DNA of 64,000 nucleotides from Shinella granuli (GTDB lineage: Bacteria; Pseudomonadota; Alphaproteobacteria; Rhizobiales; Rhizobiaceae), in the NCBI RefSeq assembly GCF_004341885.1, contig NZ_SLVX01000001.1:496001-560000 (forward strand). The letters are read 5' to 3'. The notes beneath the pieces were generated by a model that saw only the letters and a list, made by a program, of their open reading frames with translations, was not told the origin of the DNA and ran no database searches. Positions 13,019 to 30,238 of the stretch are shown here, piece by piece. Made by a program: the position numbers and the translations under genes. Each line of letters begins with the position of its first letter. Position 1 is the first letter of the stretch.

Positions 13019-13033
13019 AGACGCTCGTGAAGA

Positions 13034-13094: not shown

Positions 13095-13101
13095 ATAATC
13101 G

Positions 13102-13719: not shown

Positions 13720-13749
13720 CGCAACCAACCGGCAATGGGAGTTGATGCC

Positions 13750-14844: not shown

Positions 14845-14886
14845 ACGGCGCTCCGGAAACCTTCCCCGAACCCGATGGAGGCGGCC

Positions 14887-17800
14887 ATGACGGCGTCTGC
14901 AAGCGAGAAGACACGTTTCAACCTGTCGCGCTGGGCGATCGGCCATCCGAGCATCGCGCGTTTCCTCTTCGCGCTGATCATCGTCGCCGGCGGCTTCGGC
15001 CTCCTGCGCATGGGCCAGAGCGAGGATCCGGACTTTACCTTCCGCGTCATGGTCGTGCAGGCCGTCTGGCCGGGCGCCTCCATCGAGGACATGCAGGACC
15101 AGGTGGTCAACAAGATCGAGCGCAAGCTGCAGGAAACGCCGCATCTCGATTTCGTGCGCTCCTACACGCGCGCCGGCAGCGCCGTCATCCTGCTGCAGGT
15201 CAAGGGTGACACCGACGCCGACGAGGTCGCGGACGCCTTCTACCAGGTGCGCAAGAAGGTCGGCGATATCGAAGGCGACCTGCCGCCGGGCCTGCTCGGC
15301 CCCTATTTCAACGACGAATTCGGCGACACCTTCATCACGCTGCATTCGGTGAGCGGCGCGGGCTATTCCTATCAGGAGCTGAAGCGGTTCGCCATCGAGG
15401 CGCGCGACATGCTGCTGACGACACCCGGCGTCGAGAAGGCTGTCGTCATCGGCGACCAGCCGCAGGCGATCCATATCGACATCTCGTCCAAGGTGCTGGC
15501 CGAGCGCGGCCTGACGCTGATGGACGTGCAGAACGCCATCAGGGGGCAGAACAGCGTCGATCCGGCCGGTTCCGTCGACACCGGCACGCGCTCCGTGCGC
15601 ATCTCCGTCGCGGGCGACGTCACGCGGGTCGAGGACATCCGGGAGCTGCGCCTTCGTGCCGGGGAAAGCGTCACGCGGCTCGGCGACATCGCCACGGTGA
15701 CGGCCGGCCTCGAAGACCCCTACGAGCGCAAGTTCCGGTTCAACGGAAAGGACAGCGTGCAGATCGGCGTCGTCATGGCCAAGGGATTCAAGGTGACGGA
15801 TGTCGGCGCGGAGGTGGAGGCGACCTACCGCCGCTTCGAGCAGGCGCTGCCCTACGGCGTCGAGATCGAGCAGATCGCCAACCAGCCCGAGGTGGTCACG
15901 GACGCGATCGGCGAGTTCATGAAGGCGCTCGGCGAAGCGTTGTTGATCGTTCTCGTCGTCTCCTTCCTGTCGATCGGCTGGCGCTCGGGGCTGGTCATCG
16001 CCATCACCATTCCGCTGGTGCTGGCCGCCACCTTCGCCGTCATGTACCAGCTCGGCATCGACCTGCAGCGCATCTCGCTCGGCGCGCTGATCATCGCGCT
16101 CGGCCTCCTGGTGGACGACGCGATGATCGTCGTGGAACTGATGGAGCGCAAGCTGGAAGAGGGGCTCGGCAAGCTCGATGCGGCGAGCTTCGCCTACCGG
16201 TCCACCGCCTTCCCGATGCTGACCGGCACGCTGATCACCACGGCGGGCTTCATCCCGGTCGGTTTTGCCGAATCGACCGCCGGCGAATATGTCCGCTCGC
16301 TGTTCTTCGTGGTCGGCATCGCGCTGGTCGTGTCCTGGTTCGTGGCGGTCTATTTCACGCCCTGGCTCGGCCACATGATCCTGAAGGAGCGCCGCCATGC
16401 CGGCGGGCATCACGACGTCTTCGATACGCCCTTCTACCGACGCCTCGGTGCGACCGTCGGCTGGGCGGTGCGCCACCGCGTCGCCGTGCTCGCCCTGACG
16501 CTCGCCGTCTTCGCCGCCAGCCTCTGGAGCTTCCAGTTCATCCCGCAGAATTTCTTCCCGCAGTCCGAGCGGCCGGAAATCCTCGTCGATCTCTGGCTGC
16601 CCGAGGGCACGAGCATCAAGGAGGTCGAAGCCCAGGCCAAGGCGTTGGAGGCGCGGATGATGGACGACGGGGACAAGCGTTTCATCGCCACCTATATCGG
16701 CGAGGGCGCGCCGCGCTTCTTCCTGCCGCTCGACCAGCAATTGCGCAATCCGAATTTCGCCCAGCTTCTCGTCATGGCGAAGGACGAGCCGGCCCGCGAG
16801 CGGCTGATCACGAAACTCCGCACCATCCTCGCCGCCGACTTCCCCTCGGTGCGCGCCAAGGTGGACCGCCTGTTCCTCGGCCCGCCCACCGGCTGGCCGG
16901 TGCAGCTTCGCGTCATGGGGCCGGATCGCGCCGAGGTGCGCCGGATCGCCGACGCGGTGAAGGCGCGCTTCGACGCCGAACCGTTGCTCGGCGCCGTGCA
17001 TGACGACTGGCTGGAGCCGGTGCCGGCCATGCGCCTGGTGATCGACCAGGACCGCGCCCGCGCGCTCGGCGTCACCTCGCAGCGCGTGCGCCAGATGCTG
17101 CAGGCGGCGATGACCGGCGTGCCGCTGGATACGTTCCGCGACGGCGAGGAGACCATCTCGATCATCGCCCGCGAGCCGGCGGAGAGCCGCTCGCTGTTGT
17201 CGGCCGTCAATTCGGTCTATGTGCCGACCGACACGGGCGCCTTCGTGCCGGTGTCGCAGGTCGCCCGCGTCGTGCCGGTGCTCGAACCCGGTATCGAATG
17301 GCGGCGCGACCGGTTGCCGACGATCACCGTGCGGGCGACGCTGCCCGACGGCGTGCAGGCCAACGACGTCGCCATGCGGCTCCATGCCGGCATGCAGGAC
17401 CTGCGCGACCGGCTGCCGGAAGGCTATCGGATCGAGATCCAGGGCGGGGCCGAGGATGCGGCGGAAAGCCAGGCCTCGATCGCGGCGAAGGCACCGGTCA
17501 TGCTGCTCGTCATCGTCGTGCTCCTGATGGTGCAGCTCCAGCATTTCGGCAAGGCGATGCTGGTGCTCGCCACCGGGCCGCTCGGCATCATCGGCGCGGC
17601 GGCGGCCCTGCTGGTCAGCGGCGCGCCCTTCGGCTTCGTCGCCATCCTCGGCGTCATCGCGCTGCTCGGCATCATCATCCGCAACTCCATCATCCTCGTC
17701 GACCAGATCGACCAGGACATCGCCGCGGGCGTGGCGCGCGCCGAGGCGATCGTCGGCGCCGCGGTCAGGCGCTTCCGGCCGATCATGCTGACCGCGCTGA

Positions 17801-18033
17801 CGGCTGTGCTAGCGCTGATCCCGATCTCGCGCGGCGTCTTCTGGGGGCCGCTCGCTTATGCGATGATGGGCGGCATCCTGGTCGCAACCGTGCTGACCAT
17901 CCTCGTCCTGCCCGCCGGCTATGCGCTGTTCTTCGGCCGGGAGCGGCAGAAGGTGGGCGAAAACCCGGAGCCGGCGGAGAGCGAGGAGGGCGCAGCCGGA
18001 GCCTACGCCCCGCTTGCGATGGCCGCCGAATAG
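14887..18033 (+). CDS. RND efflux pump inner-membrane protein (AcrB family)
   Basis: A 1048-residue proton-driven exporter with the usual 12 membrane helices and two large periplasmic loops. The proton-relay pair is visible in GLLVDDAMIVVELMERKLEEG around residue 405; FGFVAILGVIALLGIIIRNS marks the second half. The protein begins NLSRWAIGHPSIARF. GGAGG stands five bases before ATG 14887, preferred over the ATG at 14875. Substrates are unknown; the TetR neighbour suggests a drug, solvent or plant-compound pump. Confidence 0.95.
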   Translation: MTASASEKTRFNLSRWAIGHPSIARFLFALIIVAGGFGLLRMGQSEDPDFTFRVMVVQAVWPGASIEDMQDQVVNKIERKLQETPHLDFVRSYTRAGSAVILLQVKGDTDADEVADAFYQVRKKVGDIEGDLPPGLLGPYFNDEFGDTFITLHSVSGAGYSYQELKRFAIEARDMLLTTPGVEKAVVIGDQPQAIHIDISSKVLAERGLTLMDVQNAIRGQNSVDPAGSVDTGTRSVRISVAGDVTRVEDIRELRLRAGESVTRLGDIATVTAGLEDPYERKFRFNGKDSVQIGVVMAKGFKVTDVGAEVEATYRRFEQALPYGVEIEQIANQPEVVTDAIGEFMKALGEALLIVLVVSFLSIGWRSGLVIAITIPLVLAATFAVMYQLGIDLQRISLGALIIALGLLVDDAMIVVELMERKLEEGLGKLDAASFAYRSTAFPMLTGTLITTAGFIPVGFAESTAGEYVRSLFFVVGIALVVSWFVAVYFTPWLGHMILKERRHAGGHHDVFDTPFYRRLGATVGWAVRHRVAVLALTLAVFAASLWSFQFIPQNFFPQSERPEILVDLWLPEGTSIKEVEAQAKALEARMMDDGDKRFIATYIGEGAPRFFLPLDQQLRNPNFAQLLVMAKDEPARERLITKLRTILAADFPSVRAKVDRLFLGPPTGWPVQLRVMGPDRAEVRRIADAVKARFDAEPLLGAVHDDWLEPVPAMRLVIDQDRARALGVTSQRVRQMLQAAMTGVPLDTFRDGEETISIIAREPAESRSLLSAVNSVYVPTDTGAFVPVSQVARVVPVLEPGIEWRRDRLPTITVRATLPDGVQANDVAMRLHAGMQDLRDRLPEGYRIEIQGGAEDAAESQASIAAKAPVMLLVIVVLLMVQLQHFGKAMLVLATGPLGIIGAAAALLVSGAPFGFVAILGVIALLGIIIRNSIILVDQIDQDIAAGVARAEAIVGAAVRRFRPIMLTALTAVLALIPISRGVFWGPLAYAMMGGILVATVLTILVLPAGYALFFGRERQKVGENPEPAESEEGAAGAYAPLAMAAE

Positions 18034-18229
18034 ACATCCGGCCAGAACGGTCGCTTCAGCCGATCAGGGCGATGCCTGCCACTGACCCAGGAAATGTTTC
18101 GAACGCGGCCTGAACGCCGGCGGCGCATGGGGCCGGGGCGGATGATCATGGGCAGCAGTCCCCGGGCGGCGGCGCGGCGGTCGTCATTCGGCCATGAGGG
18201 ACGGATTCGGTTTGTAGAGGCATTGTCAT

Positions 18230-18253
18230 CGCTATATCGTTGCGAATACAGCG
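18230..18253. promoter_or_regulatory. ModE-type Mo-box upstream of the GGCT-moeA pair
   Basis: CGCTATAT and ATACAGCG flank exactly eight bases and match as an inverted repeat at 7 of 8 positions. The E. coli modA operator has the same layout (CGTTATAT-N8-ACATAACG). It lies 89 bases before the GGCT-like gene. The rest of the 308-base gap 18034-18341 shows no other feature. Confidence 0.55.
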
Positions 18254-18341
18254 CGCCACCGAAAAGGCGACCGCGGCCGTCTTGTCAACGGGAAAGACGT
18301 TCCGCGCTTTCGCAATGACCCGTCGTGCAAAGGCCCCTGGA

Positions 18342-18689
18342 ATGACCGAACCCGCCGATATCCTCTTGTTTTCCTACGGCACGCTGCAGTTGAAAAGCGT
18401 CCAGCTCTCCTCCTTCGGCCGCCTGCTCGACGGGGAGGACGACGCGATGACCGGTTATCGCAAGGACATGGTCGAGATCACCGATCCCGACGTGCTGCGC
18501 CGGAGCGGCGAGCGCTTTCATCCGCTCGTCGTGCCCTCGGGCACAGCCGCAGACGAAGTGCCGGGCAAGGTCTTTCGCATCACCGCGCGAGAGCTGGCGG
18601 CGGCGGATGCCTATGAGGTCTCGGACTACAAGCGCGTCGAGGTGACCCTGAAATCGGGCCGGCGGGCCTTCGCCTACGTGAAGGCGTAG
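18342..18689 (+). CDS. Gamma-glutamylcyclotransferase/AIG2-like protein
   Basis: A 115-residue protein of the GGCT/AIG2 fold. The N-terminal LLFSYGTLQL is the family's substrate-binding loop; the conserved acid lies near AADAYEVSDYKRV. The reaction in GGCTs is release of 5-oxoproline from gamma-glutamyl compounds, but AIG2-like members are mostly uncharacterised. The ATG at 18342 is chosen because the fold begins there; its ribosome site is poor. It is nine bases upstream of moeA and shares the Mo-box, so a link to molybdenum metabolism is possible but unproven. Confidence 0.78.
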   Translation: MTEPADILLFSYGTLQLKSVQLSSFGRLLDGEDDAMTGYRKDMVEITDPDVLRRSGERFHPLVVPSGTAADEVPGKVFRITARELAAADAYEVSDYKRVEVTLKSGRRAFAYVKA

Positions 18690-18698
18690 GAGCAGCGC

Positions 18699-19934
18699 AT
18701 GACCGAGGATGCACCGAAATCGCTGCAGGACGCACGGGCCTTCATCGCCGGCTATATCGAAACGCCGTTACCGGCCGTTCGGATGGCATTGTCCGCTGCC
18801 TTCGGCCATGTCCTCGCGGAGGATATCGTCGCATCCGTCTTCCTGCCGCGCTTCGACAATGCCGCGATGGACGGTTTTGCCATCCGCTCCGGCGATATCG
18901 GTCCCGACGGGGCGGCCGTTCTGAGGATCGCGCAGACGATCACGGCGGGCGAGGCCACCGTGCCCGAGCTTCGCGCGGGCGAGGCGGCGCGCATCACGAC
19001 CGGTGCGCCGGTCCCGCCGGGGGCCGACCGCATCGTCGTGCAGGAAGCCGCTGCGGTCGATGGCGACACGGTGCGCCTTCTCGTGCAGGCCGGCGCCAGG
19101 CCGCATATCCGCCATGTCGGCGAGGACGTTTCGCGGGGTGACACCTTGCTCAGGGCCGGCATGCGCATCGGTCCGGCCCAGATGGCGCTCCTCACCGCCC
19201 TTGGCCTGCGCTCCGTCCTGGTGGCGCCCCGGCCGAAGGTGGCCGTGCTTTCCACCGGCGACGAGCTCGTGGAAAATCCCGGTGCGCTGGCGGCGGGCCA
19301 GATCTTCGATACCAACCGCCCCATGCTGTCACACATGCTGCTTGCGGCCGGCGCCGAGGTGACGGATCTCGGCATTGCGCGGGACGACCCGGAGGCGATC
19401 CTTGCGCGGCTCGTCGAGGCGGCGGCCGATCATGACCTCCTGCTGTCGTCCGGCGGCGCGTCGGTCGGTTTTGCCGATCACCTGACAAAAATCGTCGCCC
19501 GCCGCGGCTTTCTCGAATTCTGGAAGCTGGACATGCGGCCGGGAAAGCCGATCGGCTTCGGCGATATCGACGACTGTCCGATCCTCCTCCTGCCTGGAAA
19601 CCCGCTTGCCGCCGCCGTCGGCTTCGCGCTGGTGGGCCGGGCGATCCTCGCGCGGCTCGAAGGGCGGCCGGCGAATGACGGCGGCTTCCTGCGCCTGCCG
19701 GTCGATCGTCCGCTCGCAAGGCCCGTCGGGCGGATCGATGTGCGCCTGGGGCGCTTCCGCTTCGATCCGCAGGGCGGGGCGACGACGGTGGAGCCGCTGC
19801 CTCATGCCGGATCGGCGGGCCTGCGTTTTCTCGCGCTTGCGGATGTCATGATCCTTCTCCAGCCCGGGGAGGCGGAGATCGGCGCGGGCGAACTCGTCGA
19901 CATCCTGCCGGTCTGGCAGGGTTTTGCCGGCTGA
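18699..19934 (+). CDS. moeA: Molybdopterin molybdenumtransferase
   Basis: MoeA inserts molybdate into adenylated molybdopterin to form the molybdenum cofactor. The 411-residue protein has the signature PRFDNAAMDGFAIR (about residues 50-63), AARITTGAPVPPGAD, the MogA-like domain with STGDELV and SSGGASVGFAD, and GKPIGFGDI followed by LLPGNPLAAAV; domain IV closes the sequence. AGGAG precedes the start. It is co-directional with the GGCT-like gene and ends 84 bases before the first binding-protein gene. Length is normal. Confidence 0.96.
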   Translation: MTEDAPKSLQDARAFIAGYIETPLPAVRMALSAAFGHVLAEDIVASVFLPRFDNAAMDGFAIRSGDIGPDGAAVLRIAQTITAGEATVPELRAGEAARITTGAPVPPGADRIVVQEAAAVDGDTVRLLVQAGARPHIRHVGEDVSRGDTLLRAGMRIGPAQMALLTALGLRSVLVAPRPKVAVLSTGDELVENPGALAAGQIFDTNRPMLSHMLLAAGAEVTDLGIARDDPEAILARLVEAAADHDLLLSSGGASVGFADHLTKIVARRGFLEFWKLDMRPGKPIGFGDIDDCPILLLPGNPLAAAVGFALVGRAILARLEGRPANDGGFLRLPVDRPLARPVGRIDVRLGRFRFDPQGGATTVEPLPHAGSAGLRFLALADVMILLQPGEAEIGAGELVDILPVWQGFAG

Positions 19935-19982
19935 TCGGGCGCGTGCGAGGATCCGCGCTGTTGCCATGTGGACGCAAAGCAC

Positions 19983-20006
19983 GGATATATTCCCCGGAAC
20001 ATATCG
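19983..20006. promoter_or_regulatory. Degenerate Mo-box upstream of the first binding-protein gene
   Basis: GGATATAT and ACATATCG flank eight bases, the same spacing as the other two boxes in this region. It ends 12 bases before the ATG at 20019, next to the Shine-Dalgarno GGGAGA. Bound protein here would block transcription. The match is weaker than at 22444. Confidence 0.45.
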
Positions 20007-20018
20007 TGGGAGAGATTC

Positions 20019-21050
20019 ATGCCGGCCCTGCGCTGCCTTGCCGTTCTTCTTGCCCTGCTCCTCTCGGTCCTGCCCGCTGCGGCGCGCTCGATCACCGATG
20101 CGGCCGGGCGCGTCGTGGATATTCCGGACAAGGTGGAGCGGGTGCTTGCCGCCGGCCCGCCGGCTTCGGTGCTCGTCTACGTGCTGGCGCCGGAAAAACT
20201 TGCCGGCTGGGTGCGCGAACCGAAGGCGGAGGAGAAGGCCTTCCTGCTGCCCGCCACGCGCGACCTCCCGACCTTCGGCCAGTTGACCGGCAAGGGCGGC
20301 ACGGCCAATATCGAGGCGGTGCTGGCGGCCAAGCCCGACATCATCATCGATGTGGGTACGGTGAACCCGACCTATGCCTCGCTCGCTGACAAGGTGCAGG
20401 CGCAGACCGGCATTCCCTATGTGCTCGTCGACGGTGCCTTTGCCCGAACCGGGGCGATGCTGCGCGAGGCCGGTGTCCTGCTCGGCGCCGAGGTGCGGGC
20501 GGAAACGCTGGCGGCCTATGCGGACGAGACGCTTGCCGCCCTGGAAAAAGGCCTTGCGGGCCTTCCGGGAGACAGGCGCCCATCGGTCTATTACGGCCGC
20601 GGCGCGGAAGGGCTGGAAACGGGTCTTGCCGGCTCGATCAACATGGAGATCCTCGAGGCGGTCGGCGCGCGCAATGTCGCGGCCGCCGCGGGCGCGGGCG
20701 GGCTCACCCAGGTCTCGCTGGAGCAGGTGCTCTCCTGGAAGCCGGATGTCATCCTCGCCGCCTCGCCGCAATTCGCGAAAGCCGTGAAGGACGATCCGCT
20801 CTGGGCGGGGCTGGAGGCGGTGAAGGCCGGCCGCATCCACGCGACGCCGACGCTGCCCTTCGGCTGGATCGATTCCCCGCCCGGCATCAACCGCCTGATC
20901 GGTGTCGCCTGGCTGGAGCACACGCTCTATCCGGACGTGTTTCCCGCCGCGCTCGACGAGGAGGTGCGGACCTTCTTCAAGCTGTTCTACCAGGTGGAGC
21001 TCAGCGACGAACAGCTCGGGACGCTGCTCGGGGAAGGCGCGGCGAAGTAG
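20019..21050 (+). CDS. FecB/BtuF-type periplasmic binding protein (probable molybdate-linked importer 1)
   Basis: A 343-residue exported binding protein of the helical-backbone (cluster A) class used for siderophores, cobalamin and, in MolA, molybdate. The signal peptide ends VLPAAARS; then come ITDAAGRVVDIPDKVERVL, ANIEAVLAAKPDIIIDV and a C-terminal lobe with VSLEQVLSWKPDVILA. GGGAGA precedes ATG 20019. It abuts a FecCD permease gene. The ligand is inferred to be an oxyanion such as molybdate or tungstate from the Mo-box and neighbours; iron or cobalamin are alternatives. Confidence 0.85.
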   Translation: MPALRCLAVLLALLLSVLPAAARSITDAAGRVVDIPDKVERVLAAGPPASVLVYVLAPEKLAGWVREPKAEEKAFLLPATRDLPTFGQLTGKGGTANIEAVLAAKPDIIIDVGTVNPTYASLADKVQAQTGIPYVLVDGAFARTGAMLREAGVLLGAEVRAETLAAYADETLAALEKGLAGLPGDRRPSVYYGRGAEGLETGLAGSINMEILEAVGARNVAAAAGAGGLTQVSLEQVLSWKPDVILAASPQFAKAVKDDPLWAGLEAVKAGRIHATPTLPFGWIDSPPGINRLIGVAWLEHTLYPDVFPAALDEEVRTFFKLFYQVELSDEQLGTLLGEGAAK

Positions 21051-22064
21051 ATGCGGGTGCGCGCCCTGCCGGGCCGGCTGGCGGCAGGGCTCGGCCTTGG
21101 CGGCCTTCTCGCGCTGGTCCTCCTGTCGATGATGGTGGGCAAATATGGCGACGGGCCGCGGCCGCTGCTTTCGGCCCTGCGGCAGCTCGTGACGGGCGAG
21201 ACGACGGACCCGCTGCTTGCCACCGTGCTGTGGAACGTGCGCCTGCCGCGCGTCATGGCGGCGGTGGTCGTCGGCGCGGGGCTGGCGGCGGCGGGGGCGA
21301 CCTATCAGGGGCTGTTCCGCAATCCGCTTGTCTCGCCGGACCTGCTAGGCGTCTCGGTCGGCGCCAGCCTCGGGGCGGTGCTCGGCATTTTTCTGTCGCT
21401 GCCGGTGCTCGCCATCCAGCTTGCCGCCTTTGCCGGCGGGCTCATGGCCGTGCTTGTCGTCGCCGGCATCGGCGCGCTGGTGCGCGAGCGGGACCCGGTG
21501 CTGACGCTGGTGCTGGCCGGCATCGCCATCCAGGCGCTGATCGGCGCCGGCATCTCGCTCATCAAGGTGCTGGCCGATCCCTACGATCAACTGCCGGCCA
21601 TCACCTACTGGCTGCTCGGCAGCATGACGGCGATCACCCGCTTCGACGTCGTCTCCGTCCTGCCCGCCGTCGTCGTCGGCCTGGTGCCGCTGGTGCTGCT
21701 GCGCTGGCGCATGAACATCCTGACGCTCGGCGAGGAGGAGGCGCGCGCGCTCGGCATCGATACGCGCAAGACCCGCATCGTGCTCATCGCCGGCGCGACG
21801 CTGGTGACGGCAGCGACGGTCTCCGTGACGGGCATCATCGGCTGGATCGGCCTCGTCATCCCGCACATCGCCCGCATGCTCGTCGGGCCGGATTTCCGCC
21901 GCCTGTTGCCGGCCGCCATGCTGCTCGGGGCGGCGTATCTCCTCGTCGTCGACATGCTGGCGCGCTCCATCGCCGCCATCGAGGTGCCGCTCGGCATTCT
22001 CACGGCCACGGTCGGCGCGCCCTTCTTCCTGTGGCTGCTGATCGCCGGAAAGCGGGGCTGGTGA
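21051..22064 (+). CDS. FecCD-family ABC permease (importer 1)
   Basis: A 337-residue integral membrane protein with about ten helices. Family marks are VRLPRVMAAVVVGAGLAAAG, TYQGLFRNPLVSPDLLGVS, the coupling region GEEEARALGID and GLVIPHIARMLVGPDFRRLLP. It starts the base after the binding protein's stop codon. No ATPase gene follows; the nearest is at 24605 and could serve both importers. The next gene is the minus-strand mop. Confidence 0.9.
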   Translation: MRVRALPGRLAAGLGLGGLLALVLLSMMVGKYGDGPRPLLSALRQLVTGETTDPLLATVLWNVRLPRVMAAVVVGAGLAAAGATYQGLFRNPLVSPDLLGVSVGASLGAVLGIFLSLPVLAIQLAAFAGGLMAVLVVAGIGALVRERDPVLTLVLAGIAIQALIGAGISLIKVLADPYDQLPAITYWLLGSMTAITRFDVVSVLPAVVVGLVPLVLLRWRMNILTLGEEEARALGIDTRKTRIVLIAGATLVTAATVSVTGIIGWIGLVIPHIARMLVGPDFRRLLPAAMLLGAAYLLVVDMLARSIAAIEVPLGILTATVGAPFFLWLLIAGKRGW

Positions 22065-22116
22065 GGAGACCGCTCGCCGCGCTTTGCGTCGCGGCAAGCG
22101 ATCTTCCAGGCAGGTT

Positions 22117-22326
22117 TCAGTCGACCGCGACCATCACGTCGGACGCCTTGACGACCGCATAGGCCTCGCCGCCGACGGCAAGGCCCAGCTCGTCGACGGA
22201 TTCGTTGGTGATCGACGCGGTGACGATGGCACCGCCGGCGACTTCGATGCGGACATGGGCGGTGGTCGCGCCCTTGGTCACTTCGACGATCTTGCCCTTG
22301 AGGCGGTTGCGTGCGCTGATTTTCAT
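22117..22326 (-). CDS. Molybdenum-binding Mop protein (TOBE domain)
   Basis: A 69-residue single-domain molbindin, the length typical of Mop. It has SARNRLKGKIVEVTKGA and TASITNESVDELGL, the pattern that binds molybdate or tungstate at subunit interfaces of the hexamer. The role is cytoplasmic molybdate storage or buffering. AGGAG stands seven bases before the ATG. It is divergent from the second binding-protein gene, and the Mo-box at 22444 lies between them. This gene is the best single sign that the surrounding importers carry molybdate. Confidence 0.93.
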   Translation of the reverse strand: MKISARNRLKGKIVEVTKGATTAHVRIEVAGGAIVTASITNESVDELGLAVGGEAYAVVKASDVMVAVD

Positions 22327-22443
22327 CGGGTTCTCCTGTGCTGGTGTGTTGACGGCGCGCCATAATATGCCGGGCCACCCGGTGACTACCATGCAAACCG
22401 GGAAAACACCTCCAGATTTGCCGGCATTTTCCCGCAAGCCGCT

Positions 22444-22473
22444 CAACGTAATATTTCTGAAAATATAACGTTG
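22444..22473. promoter_or_regulatory. ModE-type Mo-box between mop and importer 2
   Basis: CAACGTAATAT and ATATAACGTTG flank eight bases and match at 10 of 11 inverted positions. The layout equals that of the E. coli ModE operator. It stands 118 bases before mop and 53 bases before the second binding-protein gene, so it could repress both when molybdate is plentiful. Confidence 0.75.
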
Positions 22474-22525
22474 TCGCTTGCCGGGGCTACCTGCTATCCC
22501 TGCGCCTTAACGGGAGGATTTCTTC

Positions 22526-23584
22526 ATGCTCGCTCGCCTTGCCGCAACCCCGAAGATCGCGCTCGCGATCGCCGGCCTTCTCTTCGCCACGCCCGCCTGG
22601 GCCGATCGGGTCGTCACCGACCAGATCGGCCGCGAGGTGCACGTTCCCGATCAGGTGAACCGCGTCGTCATCCTGCAGCACCAGACCCTCAACATCGCGG
22701 TGCAGCTCGATGCAATGGACAAGGTCGTCGGCGTGCTCGACGAGTGGAAGAAGCAGCTCGGCGCGCACTATGTGCGGCTGGCGCCGAACCTTCCGGACCT
22801 TGCCATGCCGGGCGGCCTGACCAAGGTGAACATCGAGGAGCTCTTGACGCTGAAGCCGGACGTGGTGTTCGTCACGAACTATGCGCCGGCCGACATGGTC
22901 AAGCAGATCGAGGATGCCGGGCTTGCCGTCGTCGCCATCTCGCTGCTCGACGTGCCGCCGGAAGAGGCCGTCAAGATGAACCCGAGCGTCGCGGACGAGC
23001 CGGCGGCGATCGATGCCGGTTTTGCCGCGGGCGTGCGGCTGATCGCCGACATCCTCGATAAAAAGGAGAAGGGCGAGGCGATGATCGCGGTCACCAAGAA
23101 GACCCGTGCGCTCGTCGCCGAGCGTCTTGCCGACATTCCCGAGGATCAGCGCGTGCCGGTCTACATGGCCAATCCGGATCTTTCGACCTATGGCCGCGGC
23201 AAATATACCGGGCTGATGATGGAGCGCGCCGGCGCCCGCAACGTCGCCAACGAGATTGCCGGCTTCAAGCAGGTGACGATGGAGGATGTGCTCAAATGGA
23301 ACCCGTCGGTCATCTTCGTGCAGGAGCGTTATCCGGCCGTGGTCGACGAGATCAAGACGACGGCATCCTGGCAGACGATCGACGCCGTCAGGAACGGCCG
23401 CATCCACCTGATGCCGCAATATGCCAAGGCCTGGGGCTATCCGATGCCGGAAGCCATGGCGCTCGGCGAACTCTGGATGGCGAAGACGCTCTATCCGGAG
23501 CGTTTCGCCGACATCGACATGCAGAAGGAGGCGGACGCCTATTACAAGGAGTTCTACCGCACCGACTACCGCGCCGCGCAATGA
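22526..23584 (+). CDS. FecB/MolA-type periplasmic binding protein (importer 2)
   Basis: A 352-residue exported binding protein. The signal peptide ends TPAWA before DRVVTDQIGREVHVP. Then VNIEELLTLKPDVVFVT and VTMEDVLKWNPSVIFVQ mark the two lobes of a class III binding protein. It is the length of H. influenzae MolA. GGGAGG precedes the ATG. The stop overlaps the permease start. The strong Mo-box upstream and the divergent mop gene favour molybdate or tungstate as ligand. Confidence 0.87.
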   Translation: MLARLAATPKIALAIAGLLFATPAWADRVVTDQIGREVHVPDQVNRVVILQHQTLNIAVQLDAMDKVVGVLDEWKKQLGAHYVRLAPNLPDLAMPGGLTKVNIEELLTLKPDVVFVTNYAPADMVKQIEDAGLAVVAISLLDVPPEEAVKMNPSVADEPAAIDAGFAAGVRLIADILDKKEKGEAMIAVTKKTRALVAERLADIPEDQRVPVYMANPDLSTYGRGKYTGLMMERAGARNVANEIAGFKQVTMEDVLKWNPSVIFVQERYPAVVDEIKTTASWQTIDAVRNGRIHLMPQYAKAWGYPMPEAMALGELWMAKTLYPERFADIDMQKEADAYYKEFYRTDYRAAQ

Positions 23585-24615
23585 GCAGTGAGGGTGCCGC
23601 GCGGCGGCCGGCCCGGGCAACGATCGTCCTTCTCGTGATCGCGCTGGCGGTCACCGCCGTTGCCGCGCTCGGCATCGGCCGCTACGACATTCCCTTTCTA
23701 CGCGTGATCGCCATCCTGCTTGCGCCCGTCAGTCCGCCGGATATCGCCGTCACGCCGATGGAGGCGAATGTCGTGTTCACGGTGCGTTTGCCCCGCATTC
23801 TCATGGCGGTGCTGGCGGGGGCGGGGCTTGCCCTGTCCGGCGCGGCGCTGCAGGGCGTGTTCCGCAATCCGCTGGTCGGGCCGCAGGTGGTCGGCGTCTC
23901 CTCGGGCGCCGCCTTCGGCGGCACGCTCGCCATCCTCCTCGGTCTCCCGCGCTATGGGCTTCTCGCCTCGGCCTTCGCCTTCGGACTGTCGGCCATCGTC
24001 CTCGTCTACGCCCTCAACGGCATCGTCGCGCGCCGCAACATTCTTGCGCTCGTCCTCGCCGGTGTCGTCGTCACCGGCTTTTTCGGCGCGCTGGTGAGCC
24101 TTGTGCAATATCTCGCCGATACCGAGGACAAGCTTCCGGCCATGGTGTTCTGGCTGCTCGGCAGTTTCGCCACGGCGAACCGGGACAAGTTTCTGCTGGT
24201 CGCCGCGCCGGTCGTGCTTGGCGGCCTGCTGCTGATCGGCCTGCGCTGGCGCATCAACCTCCTGTCGATGGGCGACGAGGACGCCCGCACCCTCGGCGTC
24301 CCCGTCGAGCCGCTGCGCTGGCTGGTGCTGGTGCTTGTCTCGTGCATCGTCGCCGCGCAGGTCGCCGTCAGCGGCGTCATCGGCTGGGTCGGTCTCGTCG
24401 TGCCGCATATGGCGCGCCTGCTGGTCGGGCCGGATCATCGCGTGATGATGCCGGCCTCGCTGATCACGGGCGCCCTCTACCTGCTGGTGATCGACACGGT
24501 GGCCCGCACCGCCACCAGCACGGAGATCCCGCTCGGCATCCTGACCGCGCTGATCGGTACGCCGGTCTTCGCGCTGGTGCTGCGGCAGACGCAGCGGGGC
24601 AACCATGGCCTCTGA
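23581..24615 (+). CDS. FecCD/MolB-type ABC permease (importer 2)
   Basis: A 344-residue membrane protein of the BtuC/FecCD family with about ten helices. Marks include VRLPRILMAVLAGAGLALSG, LQGVFRNPLVGPQVVGVS, GDEDARTLGVP and GLVVPHMARLLVGPDHR. ATG at 23581 overlaps the preceding stop (ATGA), a sign of translational coupling. Its end overlaps the ATPase gene by 11 bases. It is clearly paralogous to the permease at 21051. Confidence 0.92.
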   Translation: MSSEGAARRPARATIVLLVIALAVTAVAALGIGRYDIPFLRVIAILLAPVSPPDIAVTPMEANVVFTVRLPRILMAVLAGAGLALSGAALQGVFRNPLVGPQVVGVSSGAAFGGTLAILLGLPRYGLLASAFAFGLSAIVLVYALNGIVARRNILALVLAGVVVTGFFGALVSLVQYLADTEDKLPAMVFWLLGSFATANRDKFLLVAAPVVLGGLLLIGLRWRINLLSMGDEDARTLGVPVEPLRWLVLVLVSCIVAAQVAVSGVIGWVGLVVPHMARLLVGPDHRVMMPASLITGALYLLVIDTVARTATSTEIPLGILTALIGTPVFALVLRQTQRGNHGL

Positions 24616-25396
24616 CCTCGTCATGCTCCGCCTCGACAAGGCCGGTCATTCCTACGACGGCGAGCGCTGGCAGTTCCGCGCGCTCGACCTCGGCCTCAGC
24701 GCGGGCGAGATCACCGCCATCCTCGGTCCGAACGGCCGCGGCAAATCCACGCTCTTGCGCGTGCTTGCCGGGCTGCTGAAGCCGACCTCCGGTGTCGTCG
24801 ATTGCAATCCGCGCACCGGTTTCGTGCCGCAGGAGTTTTCCGGCGCCTTTCCCTATTCGGTGCTGGACATCGTGCTGATGGGGCGTGCCCGGCACATCGC
24901 GCTCTTCGGCACGCCCGGCCCCGCCGATGTCGAGAAGGCGATGGCGGCGCTGGATGCCACGGGCATGGCGGATTATGCGGCACGCAGCATCGGGTCGCTC
25001 TCCGGCGGGGAGCGCCAGCTCGTTTTGATCGCCCGTGCGCTGGCCGGCGAGAACGACGTCCTGCTGCTCGACGAACCGGCTTCCGCGCTCGACCTGAAGA
25101 ACCAGGACATCGTGCTTTCCCTGCTCGGCAGGCTGGCCGACGGCCAGAAGCTGGCGATCGCCTTCACCACGCACCAGCCGAACCATGCCACGGCGATCGC
25201 GGACAGGGTCCTGCTGATGCTTCCGGACACGCAGACCCTCTTCGGCCCGACGGAGGTCGTCATGACGGAATCGAGCCTGGAATCGCTCTATGGCGTTCCC
25301 GTCAGCGCGGTACGGCTCGGCAGCGGCGACCGGGAGGAGACCGCTTTCGTGCCGCTCTTCCGGCAACGGGCGCGCAGGAGCGGGCGCCATGGCTGA
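24605..25396 (+). CDS. ABC importer ATPase, FecE/MolC type
   Basis: A 263-residue nucleotide-binding subunit. Walker A is GPNGRGKST (residues about 40-48; Arg at the variable site), the Q-loop is VPQEFSG, the signature is LSGGERQLVLIARAL, Walker B is VLLLDEPASALD, and the switch His is in TTHQPNHA. It overlaps the permease gene upstream and the ModA-like gene downstream, so all four are co-translated. As the only ATPase in the region it may drive both importers. Confidence 0.93.
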   Translation: MASDLVMLRLDKAGHSYDGERWQFRALDLGLSAGEITAILGPNGRGKSTLLRVLAGLLKPTSGVVDCNPRTGFVPQEFSGAFPYSVLDIVLMGRARHIALFGTPGPADVEKAMAALDATGMADYAARSIGSLSGGERQLVLIARALAGENDVLLLDEPASALDLKNQDIVLSLLGRLADGQKLAIAFTTHQPNHATAIADRVLLMLPDTQTLFGPTEVVMTESSLESLYGVPVSAVRLGSGDREETAFVPLFRQRARRSGRHG

Positions 25397-26123
25397 GCCC
25401 GTCCGAATCCTCGCTGCCGGCAGCCTGCGGCATGCCCTGCCGGACATCGCCGCCGCCTTCGAGGAAACCACCGGCATTCCGGTCTCCCTGTCGCTGGGAC
25501 CCGCCGGGCTGCTGCGCGAACGGATCGAGGCGGGGGACCCGTTCGATCTCTTCGCGTCCGCCAACATGGCTCATCCGCGGCATCTCGTTTCGATCGGACT
25601 GGCGAAGGAGGCGATCTGTTTCGCGCGCAATCGCCTTGTCATCCTCGCGCGCGCCGGCCTCGGGCTGACCATGGAAAATCTCGTAACCGTGCTTTCGGCT
25701 CCCTCGACCCGGATCGGCACGTCGACGCCGGGCGACGACCCGTCGGGCGACTATGCGTTCGAAATGTTCGACCGACTGGAGATCTGCCATCCGGGCCTTG
25801 GCGACGCGCTCAAGACCCGCGCCCTGCAACTGGTCGGCGGTCGTCACACGCCGGCGGGACGGAGCGCGGCCGCTCTGATCGCCGGCGGCGCGGTCGATCT
25901 TTTCCTCGGCTATGCCTCGAATGCCCGTCTCCATGAAAAAGATCCGGATCTTGGCATCGTGGACATCCCGCCCGAATATTCGCCGAATATCGAATATGGC
26001 CTCGTGCTTCGCAACGGGGCGGCGGACGAAGCCGTTGCCCTGCGCGATTTCCTGATGTCGGACCATGCGGAGCAGCTTCTGGTGCGGCACGGCTTCGAAA
26101 GCCGCGTCGGCGCGGGGCCTTGA
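25389..26123 (+). CDS. ModA-like binding protein lacking a signal peptide
   Basis: A 244-residue protein with the ModA/extracellular-binding fold: RILAAGSLRHALPDIAAAFEETTG, DLFASANMAHPRHL, and DPSGDYAFEMFDRL. In ModA the early Ser-Leu and later Ser/Tyr residues bind molybdate, and ASANMAHP is the usual second contact. It begins MAEPVRILAAGS with no export signal and no room for one, since the start overlaps the ATPase stop. It therefore should stay in the cytoplasm, which is unusual. It could sense or store molybdate; this is inference. Confidence 0.8.
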   Translation: MAEPVRILAAGSLRHALPDIAAAFEETTGIPVSLSLGPAGLLRERIEAGDPFDLFASANMAHPRHLVSIGLAKEAICFARNRLVILARAGLGLTMENLVTVLSAPSTRIGTSTPGDDPSGDYAFEMFDRLEICHPGLGDALKTRALQLVGGRHTPAGRSAAALIAGGAVDLFLGYASNARLHEKDPDLGIVDIPPEYSPNIEYGLVLRNGAADEAVALRDFLMSDHAEQLLVRHGFESRVGAGP

Positions 26124-26180
26124 CGGTTCCGGCATCATCGACGGCCTGGCAGGAGACGGCGCCGGCCTGGCCGGGCAAAT

Positions 26181-27377
26181 TCAATCCGATGTGCCGAACC
26201 TTCGCAACAGACCCGCCGTCGCCGAGAACAGGGCGATCAGCGTGCCGTAGGCCAGCGTCGTCGCCGTCAGCCCGAAGATGCCGACCGCGATGCCGGCGAG
26301 CAGGGTGGGCAGGCCGAATGCGAGGTAGCTCAGCGTGAACAGCGAGGCGAAGAGTTCGCCGCGCTCGTCCGGACGCACGGTCGGAACGATCGAGCGCAGC
26401 ACGCCGTAGAAGCAGGTTCCAAAGCCCGTTCCGGCAATCACCAGGGCCGCGAGATAGGCGGGCAGCGATTGCCAGCCGATCGCCGCGAGCGTCAGTGCCG
26501 TGCCGATCGAAAGCGCCGCGGTTCCGTAGAGCGTCACCCGCCGCGAGGAATGCCCGCGCGCGACATAGCAGGCGACGGCGCCGGCGGCGCAGAGCAGCAC
26601 GATCACGCTGGCCTGGGTCACATGATCCTTCGCGCCGAAGACGTGCCGGATGATCGGCGCGCCGAGCGAGAGGTAGAGCCCGCCCGTCGCCCAGCCGGCG
26701 ATGACGGCCGGCGCGCTGCGCCAGAAGGAGCTGGCGGCGGTGGCCGGTATGCCGACTCGCGGCCGGAGCGAGGCCCAGACGCCCTCATGCCGCGGCGCGG
26801 TCTCCGGGATGAGCCAGATCGCAGCGGCAAACAGCGCATAGGCGGCGACCAGCGTGCCGAACACATCCGCTTCCGCCATGTCCGTCACGTCCATCAGGAT
26901 GCCTGCCGCGAGGGCGCCCACGGCAAGCCCGCCCAGCGGAACGACCGCGTTCCAGACCGAGGCGCTGCCCGGCCTGTCCTTCGGCTCGAGATCGACCACC
27001 GCGGCCGACAGGGCGGAGAGCAGCAGGCCTGCCGCGACGCCCTGCAGCGCCCGCGCCACGATCAATCCGGCCACGTCGCCCGCCTGCCAGAACAACAGCA
27101 GGCTCAGCGCCAACAGGGCAAAGCCGGTCGAGATCACCGGTCGCCGGCCGACATGGTCCGACAGCGAGCCCGTGACGAGCAGAGAGGCCAGCAGCGTGAC
27201 GGTGTAAACCGCGAAGATGCCGGTCAGCGTTGCCGCCGAAAAGCCGATCTCCTGCTGCAGCGAGGGATAGAAGGGCGAGGGCGCGCTGGCGCCGGCCATC
27301 ATCACCGCCATGCCGGCAAGCGTGATGCGGAAGCCCGCTAGGTTGCGCATCGCCAGGGAGAGCGTCGTATCGGTCAC
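26181..27377 (-). CDS. MFS transporter
   Basis: A 398-residue major-facilitator protein with about 12 helices. The loop 2-3 motif GSLSDHVGRRPVIS and the later VARALQGVAAGLL are typical of drug or sugar exporters. The GTG at 27377 is chosen because AGGTG stands just upstream; an internal ATG at 27350 is possible. It is divergent from an ArsR gene, with TTCGAA-based repeats between, so ArsR probably represses it. Substrate unknown. Confidence 0.88.
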   Translation of the reverse strand: MTDTTLSLAMRNLAGFRITLAGMAVMMAGASAPSPFYPSLQQEIGFSAATLTGIFAVYTVTLLASLLVTGSLSDHVGRRPVISTGFALLALSLLLFWQAGDVAGLIVARALQGVAAGLLLSALSAAVVDLEPKDRPGSASVWNAVVPLGGLAVGALAAGILMDVTDMAEADVFGTLVAAYALFAAAIWLIPETAPRHEGVWASLRPRVGIPATAASSFWRSAPAVIAGWATGGLYLSLGAPIIRHVFGAKDHVTQASVIVLLCAAGAVACYVARGHSSRRVTLYGTAALSIGTALTLAAIGWQSLPAYLAALVIAGTGFGTCFYGVLRSIVPTVRPDERGELFASLFTLSYLAFGLPTLLAGIAVGIFGLTATTLAYGTLIALFSATAGLLRRFGTSD

Positions 27378-27391
27378 AGGGCACCTGATTG

Positions 27392-27453
27392 TTCGAATAA
27401 TTTCGAACCAATCCCTACTATCATTTTCGTGACGGTTCAACTAAATTCGAACC
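27392..27453. promoter_or_regulatory. ArsR operators between the MFS and ArsR genes
   Basis: TTCGAA-taat-TTCGAA (27392-27407) is a perfect dyad just upstream of the MFS start. A related dyad, GGTTCAA..TTCGAACC (27434-27453), touches the ArsR start codon. Two like sites in one 76-base divergent region suggest one regulator controlling both genes. Confidence 0.6.
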
Positions 27454-27780
27454 ATGGCAACCGAGATCCCAGAACTTTCGCATCCCGACCGCAGCGACCT
27501 GCGGCTGACCGACGTGCTCTTTGCGCTGAGCGATCCCGAACGCCTGGCCATCGTGCGCCAGCTCGCCGGCGGTCCGCTCGAAATGGCCCAATGCCATCTT
27601 TCCGACCCCTCGATGCCGAAATCGACCAAGTCGCATCTGATGAAGGTGCTGCGCGAGGCCGGCATCATCCGGAACGAACCCCTGGGACGCGGCCGCCGCC
27701 TCAGCCTCCGGCGGGACGATCTGGAGGCGCGGTTTCCGGGATTGATCGGTTCGGTGCTCTCCGCCTCCGCCGAGACGTAG
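27454..27780 (+). CDS. ArsR-family winged-helix regulator
   Basis: A 108-residue regulator: RLTDVLFALSDPERLAIVRQL opens the winged helix, KSTKSHLMKVLREAGII is the recognition helix, and GRGRRLSLRRDDLEARFPG the wing. The CxC metal motif of ArsR/SmtB is absent (a single Cys lies in AQCHLSD), so a metal ligand is unlikely. Its start codon adjoins an operator-like dyad, so it probably represses itself and the MFS gene. Confidence 0.9.
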   Translation: MATEIPELSHPDRSDLRLTDVLFALSDPERLAIVRQLAGGPLEMAQCHLSDPSMPKSTKSHLMKVLREAGIIRNEPLGRGRRLSLRRDDLEARFPGLIGSVLSASAET

Positions 27781-27824
27781 CCGGTCCATCGACGGCCGCG
27801 GACGGGGTCTCGAAGGGCCGCATG

Positions 27825-27853
27825 TTGACATTCCGTCTTTGTCGATCTTATCG
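27825..27853 (+). promoter_or_regulatory. Promoter of amiC-amiR
   Basis: TTGACA (27825-27830) and TTATCG (27848-27853) are 17 bases apart. Transcription would begin just before the first leader hairpin at 27862. Confidence 0.5.
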
Positions 27854-27861
27854 TGACGACA

Positions 27862-27963
27862 CGTCAGTCCGCTGACGAGGCGGCAATGTTGCCGCAGGAC
27901 TTCTGAGCGCAATGTCGCCTCCCGTGCCTCGCATCGTTCCGAGGCTGGGAGGTTTTTTGTTTT
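27862..27963 (+). promoter_or_regulatory. ANTAR-type antitermination leader before amiC
   Basis: In order: a hairpin CGTCAG/CTGACG (27862-27877); P1, stem GCGGC/GCCGC with hexaloop AATGTT (27880-27895); P2, stem GAG-GC/GC-CTC with one bulge and hexaloop AATGTC (27905-27921); then the terminator. Both hexaloops have A at 1 and G at 4, the known ANTAR recognition rule. The P2 3' arm overlaps the terminator 5' arm (27918-27921), so the two exclude each other. AmiR, encoded downstream, is the expected partner. Confidence 0.75.
27918..27963 (+). terminator. Attenuator terminator before amiC
   Basis: CCTCCC (27918-27923) pairs with GGGAGG (27947-27952), and GCCTCG pairs with CGAGGC inside; six T then GTTT follow. 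No gene ends here, so it acts as a leader attenuator about 140 bases before amiC. Confidence 0.85.
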
Positions 27964-28101
27964 CTGGCGGGAGAAAGAAAACGGGCGCATCCGGGGTACG
28001 CGGACGGGCGGCACTTCGGCGAGCTGGGGCGAAGAGGCGATCAGACCTCACCAGCGGTGACCGATAAAAAGAGGGGTCAAGTAAAGGGATGAACCGAGAC
28101 A

Positions 28102-29253
28102 ATGGGAGCTCTAAACCGAAACCAACGGACTTCTGCGCCATGGCGTGTCGGGGTTCTGTTCTCCAAGACCGGCTTCATGTCGGTCATAGAGGAAACACAA
28201 CTGCGCGGCACGCTGATCGCCATCGATGAAATCAACGACCGGGGCGGTGTCAACGGACGCCCGATCGAGCCGATCGTCTACGATCCCGGCTCGGAGATCC
28301 GGTCCTACGGACAATATGCCAAGCGCCTGATGGTCGAGGACGGCGTGAGTACGATCTTCGGCTGCTACACCTCGTCGAGCCGCAAGGCGGTTCTGCCGGT
28401 CGTGGAACGGCTGGACGGCCTTCTGTGGTATCCGACGCTCTACGAGGGCTTCGAGTTCTCGCCGAATGTGATCTATACGGGCGCCACGCCGAACCAGAAC
28501 TCCGTGCAGCTTTGCAAGGCGCTGATGAGCCAGTTCGGCAACCGCTTCTTCTTCGTCGGGTCGGATTATGTCTATCCGCGTGAATCCAACCGGGTGATGC
28601 GGGAACTGGTGCGCAACAACGGCGGAACGGTCGTGGGCGAGCGATATCTGCGTCTCGAGGCGGACCGCAGTGAATTCGTGCCGCTCGTTCGCGAGATCAA
28701 GGAGGCGCAGCCGGACGTGATCTTCTCCACCGTCGTCGGCGAATCCACCACCTTCCTCTATCAGGCCTATCACGATCTCGGACTCAACCCGAAGACGGTG
28801 CCCATCGCCAGCCTCACCACGACCGAGGCGGAGATCCGCGCCATGGGATATGATGTCGGGGAGGGGCATTATACGGCCGCGTCCTATTTCCAGGGCGTGG
28901 AGACGGCGCGCAACAACAGCTTCGTCAGCCACTACCAGAAACGCTACGGCGGCGACGAGCCGACCAATATGTGCCTCGAAGCCTCGTATTTTCAGGTCAA
29001 CCTCTTCGCGCGCACGCTCGAAGAGACCAATTCCCTCGACACCAGGCAATTGCGCACCTTCGTCATGGGCGCGGAGTTCGAGGCGCCGCAGGGCAGCGTG
29101 TCGATCAATCCCGTCTGGGGCCATGCGGATGTCTGGACGCGCATCGGGCGGGCCAACCGCCAGGGCCAGTTCGATATCGTCTTCGAGTCGCAGGCGAGCG
29201 TGAAAGCCGATCCCTATCTCATCGGCTACGGCCGTTGTCTGGAGAATTGTTGA
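28102..29253 (+). CDS. amiC: AmiC-type amide sensor
   Basis: A 383-residue cytoplasmic periplasmic-binding-fold protein, close to the 385 of P. aeruginosa AmiC. It has no signal peptide. Typical segments are RVGVLFSKTGFMSVIEETQL, FGCYTSSSRKAVLPVVER, LLWYPTLYEG and TPNQNSVQ. AmiC binds short amides and holds AmiR inactive until an inducing amide arrives. The gene follows an ANTAR leader and is immediately upstream of amiR. A urea-binding UrtA relative is the alternative, but lack of export and the adjacent ANTAR gene favour AmiC. Confidence 0.9.
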   Translation: MGALNRNQRTSAPWRVGVLFSKTGFMSVIEETQLRGTLIAIDEINDRGGVNGRPIEPIVYDPGSEIRSYGQYAKRLMVEDGVSTIFGCYTSSSRKAVLPVVERLDGLLWYPTLYEGFEFSPNVIYTGATPNQNSVQLCKALMSQFGNRFFFVGSDYVYPRESNRVMRELVRNNGGTVVGERYLRLEADRSEFVPLVREIKEAQPDVIFSTVVGESTTFLYQAYHDLGLNPKTVPIASLTTTEAEIRAMGYDVGEGHYTAASYFQGVETARNNSFVSHYQKRYGGDEPTNMCLEASYFQVNLFARTLEETNSLDTRQLRTFVMGAEFEAPQGSVSINPVWGHADVWTRIGRANRQGQFDIVFESQASVKADPYLIGYGRCLENC

Positions 29254-29958: not shown

Positions 29959-29974
29959 CGTTTCAAAATTGTCC

Positions 29975-30053
29975 GCGGCAAAGACGCTGCGCACATAAAG
30001 GGTGACGAAACCCCGCGGGTCCGCCGAAAGCGGAACGTGGGGTTTTTTGTTTT
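29975..30053 (+). promoter_or_regulatory. Second leader: ANTAR-like hairpin and terminator
   Basis: P1 has stem GCGGC/GCTGC and hexaloop AAAGAC (29975-29990), with A at 1 and G at 4. A second hairpin GGGT-GACGAA-ACCC (30000-30013) has G at 4 but not A at 1; its 3' arm is the 5' arm of a terminator (ACCCC 30010-30014 with GGGGT 30039-30043, inner TCCGC/GCGGA, then T6GT5). It begins 16 bases after amiR. Confidence 0.6.
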
Positions 30054-30133
30054 TCTGCATGGCCTGACGCACAGCCGGTGAACGCACGCAACAGCGTTGC
30101 ATCCGGTCCGTGCCCAGACGAAGCGCATTCCCC

Positions 30134-30224: not shown

Positions 30225-30238
30225 GATGGAGACAGAGG

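Follow-up and report, generated by a model that had tools for sequence, protein, structure and literature searches.

Genes and sites at the locus

Within the window, by which we mean the whole 64 kb stretch of DNA analysed, the gene order is GGACT-moeA-SBP1-permease1, then mop on the reverse strand, then molA-molB-molC and a ModA-like gene, and every named open reading frame is intact. The genes and the sites between them are as follows:

18230..18253, no strand: Mo-box-like site with 3 mismatches, 88 bp ahead of GGACT
18342..18689, plus strand: GGACT (gamma-glutamyl cyclotransferase-like; Pfam PF06094, 33.4 bits), first gene of the moeA unit
18699..19934, plus strand: moeA, molybdenum insertase (Pfam MoeA_N, MoCF_biosynth and MoeA_C over cut-off)
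19983..20006, no strand: Mo-box-like site with 4 mismatches, 12 bp ahead of the start codon of SBP1
20019..21050, plus strand: SBP1, FecB-type binding protein of the "FecB1" lineage (Pfam Peripla_BP_2)
21051..22064, plus strand: permease1, FecCD type ("FecCD1"; Pfam FecCD, 286.9 bits), without an ATPase gene behind it
22117..22326, minus strand: mop, molybdate-binding protein (TIGR00638, 87 bits, cut-off 55)
22447..22470, no strand: Mo-box, 1 mismatch, between the divergent mop and molA
22526..23584, plus strand: molA, binding protein of HI1472 (MolA) type (phmmer against 3psa, 430.6 bits)
23581..24615, plus strand: molB, FecCD-type permease (Pfam FecCD, 284.5 bits)
24605..25396, plus strand: molC, sole ATPase gene of the locus (Pfam ABC_tran, 90 bits; TOBE domain not listed)
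25389..26123, plus strand: ModA-like gene in the position of H. influenzae HI1469 (NF002918, 298.1 bits, cut-off 288; TIGR01256, 78.5 bits, cut-off 62.5)

The Pfam and NCBIfam matches of these intact frames confirm what an earlier note on this DNA had described: two binding-protein/permease pairs of FecB/FecCD type flank mop with a single ATPase, moeA precedes them and a ModA-like gene follows. The best NCBIfam match of moeA, PRK10680, reaches 341.6 bits, under its cut-off of 440, and among the related loci GGACT was found in L038 only. A ModB-type gene is absent inside the locus; on contig C1 the TIGR02141 matches of the window fall at 541-557 kb, beyond the 514-522 kb in question. As to riboswitch control, an Rfam search of positions 12000-32000 gave nothing but one tRNA.

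Mo-boxes and the separate modABC genes

The window was scanned with the Mo-box pattern CGTTATAT-N8-ATATAACG, which agrees with the type of ModE consensus given in the relevant part of PMC545781. With up to 3 mismatches there were 2 matches (18230 and 22447) against 0 in 100 shuffles. Allowing up to 4 gave three, adding 19983, which taken alone is weak because 4 of 20 shuffles also gave one match each. The 18230 site has a counterpart at the same place before GGACT in L038 (3713), that at 19983 is repeated 13 bp before SBP1 in L038 (5458) and L039 (5432), and different boxes precede SBP1 in L063 (4762) and L065 (4845). Directly 3' of the 22447 box, reading by eye picks out a possible -35/-10 pair, TTGTCG (22471-22476) and CTATCC (22494-22499). 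Among 72 MolA loci a Mo-box match occurs in 61, against 2 of 72 shuffled, and 55 have one within 350 bp upstream of molA; in the SBP1-lineage set boxes are present in only 6 of 36 loci, against 0 of 36 shuffled. The boxes of the mol operon are conserved also in gammaproteobacteria, and this would tie the operon to ModE, where the portion of PMC4031551 that deals with molybdate repression of molB leaves the responsible factor open.

A search for ModABC elsewhere in the genome, proposed in the earlier note, found the complete set on another contig, C20, with modA at 283.5 bits (NCBIfam cut-off 253), modB at 369.7 (262) and modC at 469.9 (285). This modA is preceded by its own Mo-box, and beside modC lies a short modE-like gene with an HTH only (119-aa ORF; TIGR00637, 91.2 bits against a cut-off of 98.5). 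Hence the locus adds to ModABC. The earlier title, which had it built on other importers "instead of ModABC", could appeal to the lack of ModB in the locus itself, a lack that is real there but not genome-wide; with all three genes over their cut-offs on C20 and a Mo-box before modA, replacement is refuted and we reject it.

The remainder of that title has fared better: MolA orthology, conserved Mo-boxes and gene content support a molybdenum locus whose importers are of FecB/FecCD type, and we regard it as almost certainly a molybdenum/tungsten locus. It would stand under ModE/Mo-box control and add molybdate/tungstate uptake. When molybdate is scarce, ModE would be released from the Mo-boxes, and expression of moeA, mop and the two importers would add to that of modABC; this direction of regulation is one that we infer.

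Two importer lineages and one ATPase

The second pair with its ATPase is, on orthology, MolABC of the Haemophilus influenzae HI1472-70 type. MolA is an ortholog of HI1472 (phmmer against 3psa, 4.5e-128 over residues 27-349; next PDB match 1.6e-31), a FecCD-type permease and an ABC ATPase lie directly behind molA, and the permease keeps this order in 62 of 71 MolA loci; in L066 MolB overlaps molA and the permease is present. The MolB clade of the permease tree has a support of 0.998. By analogy with H. influenzae, MolABC would be a type II importer, very probably for molybdate or tungstate.

The earlier assignment of both pairs to the MolAB class holds for this second pair, but not for the first. 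SBP1 and permease1 fall outside the MolA/MolB clade and form a separate lineage: the nearest PDB entries to SBP1 are 4pag (2.3e-45) and 4ovk (6e-21), with MolA (3psa, 5.2e-19) third, and permease1 sits in a clade of its own (n=37, support 0.968), apart from MolB, the node joining the two having a support of only 0.674. We therefore rejected two copies of one importer. In Mesorhizobium L100 and L105, MolA is paired with a permease closer to permease1 than to MolB, so modules can mix. For SBP1, an AlphaFold model built on six sequences reached a pLDDT of 44 and was discarded.

Among 297 genomes from the order, 37 carry this lineage. Within 6.5 kb, the 34 SBP1-lineage loci fetched carry mop (19), ModA-like (9), TupA-like (8), HTH-PBP (6), modE-like (4) and modA (3) genes; 24 have at least one of these Mo/W markers, and in the 10 where none was seen at least three lie on short contigs. 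The counts for TupA-like, ModE-like, HTH-PBP and TrmO genes are tblastn matches to representatives checked by Pfam (PBP_like_2, HTH_1, HTH_17 with PBP_like, and TrmO_N, respectively), the label TupA being the analyst's reading. MolA is in none of the 34 loci. As a control in the genome under study, 0 of 2 strong free Mop matches lie within 10 kb of a FecCD gene outside the locus.

SBP1 probably carries a molybdenum or tungsten oxyanion, and SBP1/permease1 would then be a second importer lineage, independent of MolABC and serving the same type of cargo. FecB/FecCD proteins carry mostly chelates or corrinoids, and the pair might instead import chelated molybdenum (a molybdophore) or some other oxyanion, e.g. 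vanadate, and be merely co-regulated with molybdenum genes. That the nearest solved relative of SBP1 is 4pag and not MolA speaks for such a cargo, as does the coexistence of ModB in 33 of 35 lineage genomes and of TupA-like genes in 8 of 34 loci, by which plain molybdate/tungstate is already covered. A TonB-dependent receptor, however, was not found in the window and turned up only once among the 34 lineage loci, at a distance of 3.8 kb in L184 (a single query of limited sensitivity), the neighbours of the lineage are mop, modA, ModA-like and TupA-like genes, and H. influenzae itself has parallel high- and low-affinity molybdate systems, according to the relevant part of PMC4031551. We consider a different cargo unlikely.

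An ATPase adjoins the permease1-type permease in 31 of 31 lineage loci where the permease is visible, a count that holds with L198, whose ATPase was dropped by a 38% filter yet is present. The pair lacks an ATPase in the genome under study and in L038, L039, L063 and L065 (three other Shinella and one Phyllobacterium), each time beside MolABC, and L059 has both SBP1-permease1-ATPase and MolABC. A relocated copy was sought in the five ATPase-less assemblies, which are drafts, and no ortholog of the lineage ATPase was found anywhere in them: the best match is 44% in the genome under study and 39-45% in the other four, against 100% in a control genome having it (G662). SBP1 and permease1 in these genomes are under purifying selection (dN/dS 0.12-0.17; MolA/MolB similar, 0.10-0.15).

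Two different binding-protein/channel pairs with only one ATPase suggest that one motor probably drives both. SBP1/permease1 would have lost its own ATPase and would now use MolC, and we think it fairly likely that permease1 is driven in this way. The pair could instead run on another FecCD-type ATPase of the cell, three of which (C8:241762, C5:2974, C16:60970) match the lost ATPase with slightly higher scores (160.1, 158.8 and 154.9 bits) than MolC does (150.2), or be a decaying remnant; the loss is seen only with MolC alongside (5/5), and purifying selection argues against decay, so that we judge this alternative rather improbable. The coupling loop of permease1 shows no convergence to MolB: the identity is 0.45 where the ATPase was lost and 0.51 in relatives that have one. 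Two permeases and one ATPase in a single locus would also suit a heterodimeric permease of permease1 and MolB on MolC, like FecC-FecD, served by two alternative binding proteins, but in many genomes either permease stands by itself with a binding protein and an ATPase of its own (permease1 31/31; MolB behind MolA 62/71) and so presumably can work as a homodimer, which leaves the heterodimer very unlikely. The whole reading, a molybdenum-controlled locus with two oxyanion importers and MolC common to both, has our moderate confidence.

The ModA-like gene product has both the fold and the family score of ModA (AF2 model, pLDDT 93; best Foldseek matches are ModA-type proteins), and no signal peptide was found in it. 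A segment of 12 residues with mean hydropathy of at least 2.0 is present in 0 of 67 such proteins in mol loci against 8 of 9 in SBP1-lineage loci (in this survey the N-termini of L059 and L074 were unreadable in frame, and the genes of L073, L077 and L078, at 34-36% identity, lie on the opposite strand); from the lack of a signal-peptide-like segment the protein is probably cytosolic. We can only speculate that it is a cytosolic, molybdate-binding partner of MolABC that replaces the absent TOBE sensor of MolC, reading or buffering the molybdate of the cytosol and gating or unloading the two-importer MolC hub, a role we hold to be doubtful. In some Enterobacterales MolA and the ModA-like protein occur without MolBC (9/71 MolA loci; 5/11 further genomes). 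A gate on MolC suits this less well than a partnership of MolA with the ModA-like protein or a chaperone role for MoeA.

Significance and comparison with known systems

If this reading is true, ATPase sharing, shown for iron-compound importers of Staphylococcus aureus, extends to FecCD-type molybdate/tungstate importers, and a second importer lineage, common in the order (37/297 genomes), currently probably bears an iron-siderophore transport annotation. A further question is why nearly every mol operon has a ModA without a signal peptide. In titles and abstracts of openly licensed PMC papers we found no description of the second lineage, the missing ATPase or the signal-less ModA.

The closest known system is MolBC-A of H. 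influenzae (HI1470-HI1472, with HI1469 annotated modA). It shares the MolA ortholog, a second molybdate system next to ModABC and the order molA-molB-molC-ModA-like, which is that of HI1472-HI1469 in the part of PMC3928620 concerned; transcription of its molB is lowered by molybdate, as the corresponding part of PMC4031551 reports. The present locus differs in its divergent mop, moeA, Mo-boxes and second pair of unrelated lineage, and no genes like HI1473-75 were recognised in it. For the shared motor the parallel is FhuC of S. aureus, described in the pertinent part of PMC10147376 as one ATPase for several FecCD-type pairs without ATPase (Fhu, Sir, Hts, IsdEF), while a relative in S. lugdunensis keeps a dedicated ATPase, IsdL. 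ATPase-less FecCD-type pairs whose relatives elsewhere keep their own ATPase are common to both cases; the staphylococcal one concerns iron compounds in a Gram-positive organism, and sharing was shown there by genetics and two-hybrid assays, whereas here we infer it.

With the ModABC/ModE/Mop systems of Proteobacteria the locus has in common the Mo-box, mop and moeA of that regulon, and a modABC elsewhere in the genome, but its importers are FecCD-type (type II) and not ModB-type. Rhodobacter capsulatus morABC is likewise a second molybdenum-repressed importer beside ModABC, although MorABC is described in the part of PMC6925177 that treats it as ModABC-like and not FecCD-type.

Relation of the locus to ModABC and the Mo-boxes

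Open-reading-frame, domain and family searches recovered intact, and in the order the earlier note had claimed, all the genes it named, with MolC, as it had also held, the sole ATPase of the locus; the Pfam domain of MolC is ABC_tran, with no TOBE domain listed. MolA, whose closest matches in the genome collection are from Shinella strains (94%, 93% and 92% identity), has H. influenzae MolA (structure 3psa, 4.5e-128) as its best match, the runner-up being at 1.6e-31. SBP1, the binding protein of the first FecB/FecCD-type pair, is ruled out as a second MolA because 4pag (2.3e-45) and 4ovk (6e-21) outscore MolA (5.2e-19).

The earlier note took the locus to stand in place of ModABC and proposed a genome-wide search. 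The assembly (97 contigs, 6.59 Mb) carries modA, modB and modC on contig C20, each above its NCBIfam cut-off, with a Mo-box with two mismatches 5' of modA and, adjoining modC, an HTH-only ModE-like gene (119 aa) that scores 91.2 bits where the cut-off is 98.5. The window locus is therefore an addition to ModABC, which it supplements.

Allowing up to 3 mismatches, the Mo-box pattern CGTTATAT-N8-ATATAACG gave 2 matches in the window and 0 in 100 shuffles; the third site needs 4 mismatches, a limit at which one match each also came from 4 of 20 shuffles. One related locus, L038, has counterparts to all three boxes (3713, 5458, 7921), L039 retains two (5432, 7922), and L063 and L065 have boxes 5' of SBP1 and of molA. 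Across MolA loci, 61/72 contain a match versus 2/72 shuffled loci, and in 55/72 a box lies at most 350 bp 5' of molA. At up to 3 mismatches the pattern occurs at 8 places in the Shinella genome versus 4 for the pattern read backwards, the best being C9:146644 (perfect), C1:518447 between mop and molA and C9:18103 (one mismatch each), then the modA box. By eye, the box at 22447 abuts a possible -35 element of molA, which is consistent with repression as the direction of control; molybdate lowers molB of H. influenzae through a factor that PMC4031551 does not identify.

Other genes also lie near such boxes. A DUF2325 gene has a one-mismatch box directly 5' in 11 MolA loci, and it appears to belong to the ModE regulon as a member not recognised before. 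Examples, with the homolog of the Shinella genome, are:

L044:14190-15419, DUF2325 gene, PF10087 confirmed
L065:3578-4831, minus strand, DUF2325 gene
L070:3221-4447, minus strand, DUF2325 gene
L036:5730-6941 (own genome, contig C9), DUF2325 gene, PF10087 confirmed

The last lies about 0.6 kb from the perfect box C9:146644, behind a Nudix gene; the box itself sits between a Nudix gene and a LysR-type regulator. Farther along L036 is a 2-hydroxyacid-dehydrogenase-family protein that, judged by eye, resembles NAD-dependent formate dehydrogenase; a gene there was likewise named XdhC-like by eye. Among the genes 3' of the one-mismatch box at C9:18103-18126 (about 4604 in L219) is one for a NapA-like molybdopterin oxidoreductase, on the minus strand at L219:1030-3561.

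The ModA-like protein

In 67/71 MolA loci, molA has a ModA-like gene no more than 4.5 kb away, immediately 3' of molC in 48 of the 67; HI1469, in the same position in H. influenzae, is annotated modA (PMC3928620). As our own measure of an export signal, which is not a trained predictor, we took 12-residue segments before the conserved AAGSL motif and a mean hydropathy threshold of 2.0. None of the 67 proteins has a segment reaching it (maximum 1.92; the N-termini in L059 and L074 were not readable); among ModA-like proteins beside SBP1-lineage importers, 8/9 reach 2.1-2.7, in segments that resemble signal peptides. The AlphaFold model (pLDDT 93) has as its best Foldseek matches ModA and ModA-like proteins (TM 0.68-0.78 among the first 20). 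A ModA fold without an export signal is therefore a regular part of the mol operon. It may be a sensor for the TOBE-less MolC, a buffer or a donor to MoeA.

A role tied only to MolC is disfavoured by loci with MolA and a ModA-like gene and neither MolB nor MolC, found in 9/71 MolA loci (Rahnella, Izhakiella and one Pectobacterium locus) and in 5/11 further genomes of the phylum sample. In three such genomes no MolB ortholog was found, the best FecCD protein having 41% identity (218 bits) against 51-56% and 318-337 bits for true orthologs.

Loci with MolA and a ModA-like gene, without MolB or MolC between or behind:
L086, L087, L090, L091, L093, L094, L097, L107, L108
L210, L211, L216, L217, L218

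The SBP1 lineage

The first pair was found in 37/297 genomes of the order (E 1e-40): beyond our genome, 34 form a coherent group at 47-59% identity and two match more weakly (33-36%). Within 6.5 kb in the group's 34 loci, five of which span only 3-8 kb, we counted mop (19), ModA-like (9), TupA-like (8), TrmO (9), HTH-PBP (6), modE-like (4) and modA (3) genes; at least one Mo/W marker is present in 24 and none in 10. Mo-boxes occur in only 6/36 fetched loci of the lineage versus 0/36 shuffled, and ModB exceeds its cut-off in 33/35 genomes of the group, our own counted. In our genome, no other FecCD gene lies near either strong free Mop match.

A tree built from 94 FecCD permeases gives MolB and permease1 a clade each (support 0.998 and 0.968), and the node uniting them, with a few others, has 0.674. 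Importer modules mix: in Mesorhizobium L100 and L105, MolA (55%, 53%) is followed by a permease closer to permease1 (49%, 55%), at a weak node (0.514).

The recurring TrmO_N (PF01980) gene, seen for example in L171, L186 and L191, is also found in L065 (7098-7622). L188 has an SBP1-lineage gene with no permease or ATPase behind it and TupA-like and HTH-PBP genes alongside. In L206, an SBP-FecCD-ATPase set distantly akin to SBP1 precedes a TonB receptor (13984-16311), about 16 bp 5' of whose start lies a palindrome, AGTTATAT-N8-ATATAACT (13945-13968); this is possibly a metal-chelate system.

A missing ATPase and known shared ATPases

The permease is visible in 31/34 SBP1-lineage loci, and in 31/31 an ATPase lies within 400 bp of it; MolA is nearby in 0/34. 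The pair without an ATPase was found beside MolABC, in the window, in L038, L039 and L063 (Shinella) and in L065 (Phyllobacterium), so that the dedicated ATPase was lost exactly where another FecCD-type ATPase adjoins. L059, from a further Shinella, carries MolABC together with SBP1-permease1-ATPase. With the latter ATPase as query, our genome returned at best 38-44% identity (160 bits) and the four other ATPase-less genomes 39-45% (at most 162 bits); the L059 genome, as a control, gave back its own gene (564 bits), and the ATPases adjoining the permease in the 31 loci are 43-61% identical to it. SBP1 and permease1 have remained constrained after the loss, with dN/dS of 0.115-0.162 and 0.118-0.170 (MolA 0.098-0.132, MolB 0.117-0.154). 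The position of the ATPase-less pairs beside MolABC would suit MolC as the motor of permease1, but MolC comes no higher than fourth when ATPases of our genome are scored against the lost one, and permease1's coupling loop shows no shift towards MolB (0.45 vs 0.51).

Searches of openly licensed PMC papers did not find the combination, the second lineage or the ATPase loss beside MolABC, all of which are new to us. MolABC, the ModE regulon and shared ATPases are already known kinds of system. According to PMC10147376, FhuC of S. aureus serves Fhu, Sir, Hts and IsdEF, and S. lugdunensis keeps IsdL; FhuC, one ATPase with several clients, is a parallel for the window, where a pair without its own ATPase stands beside MolC.
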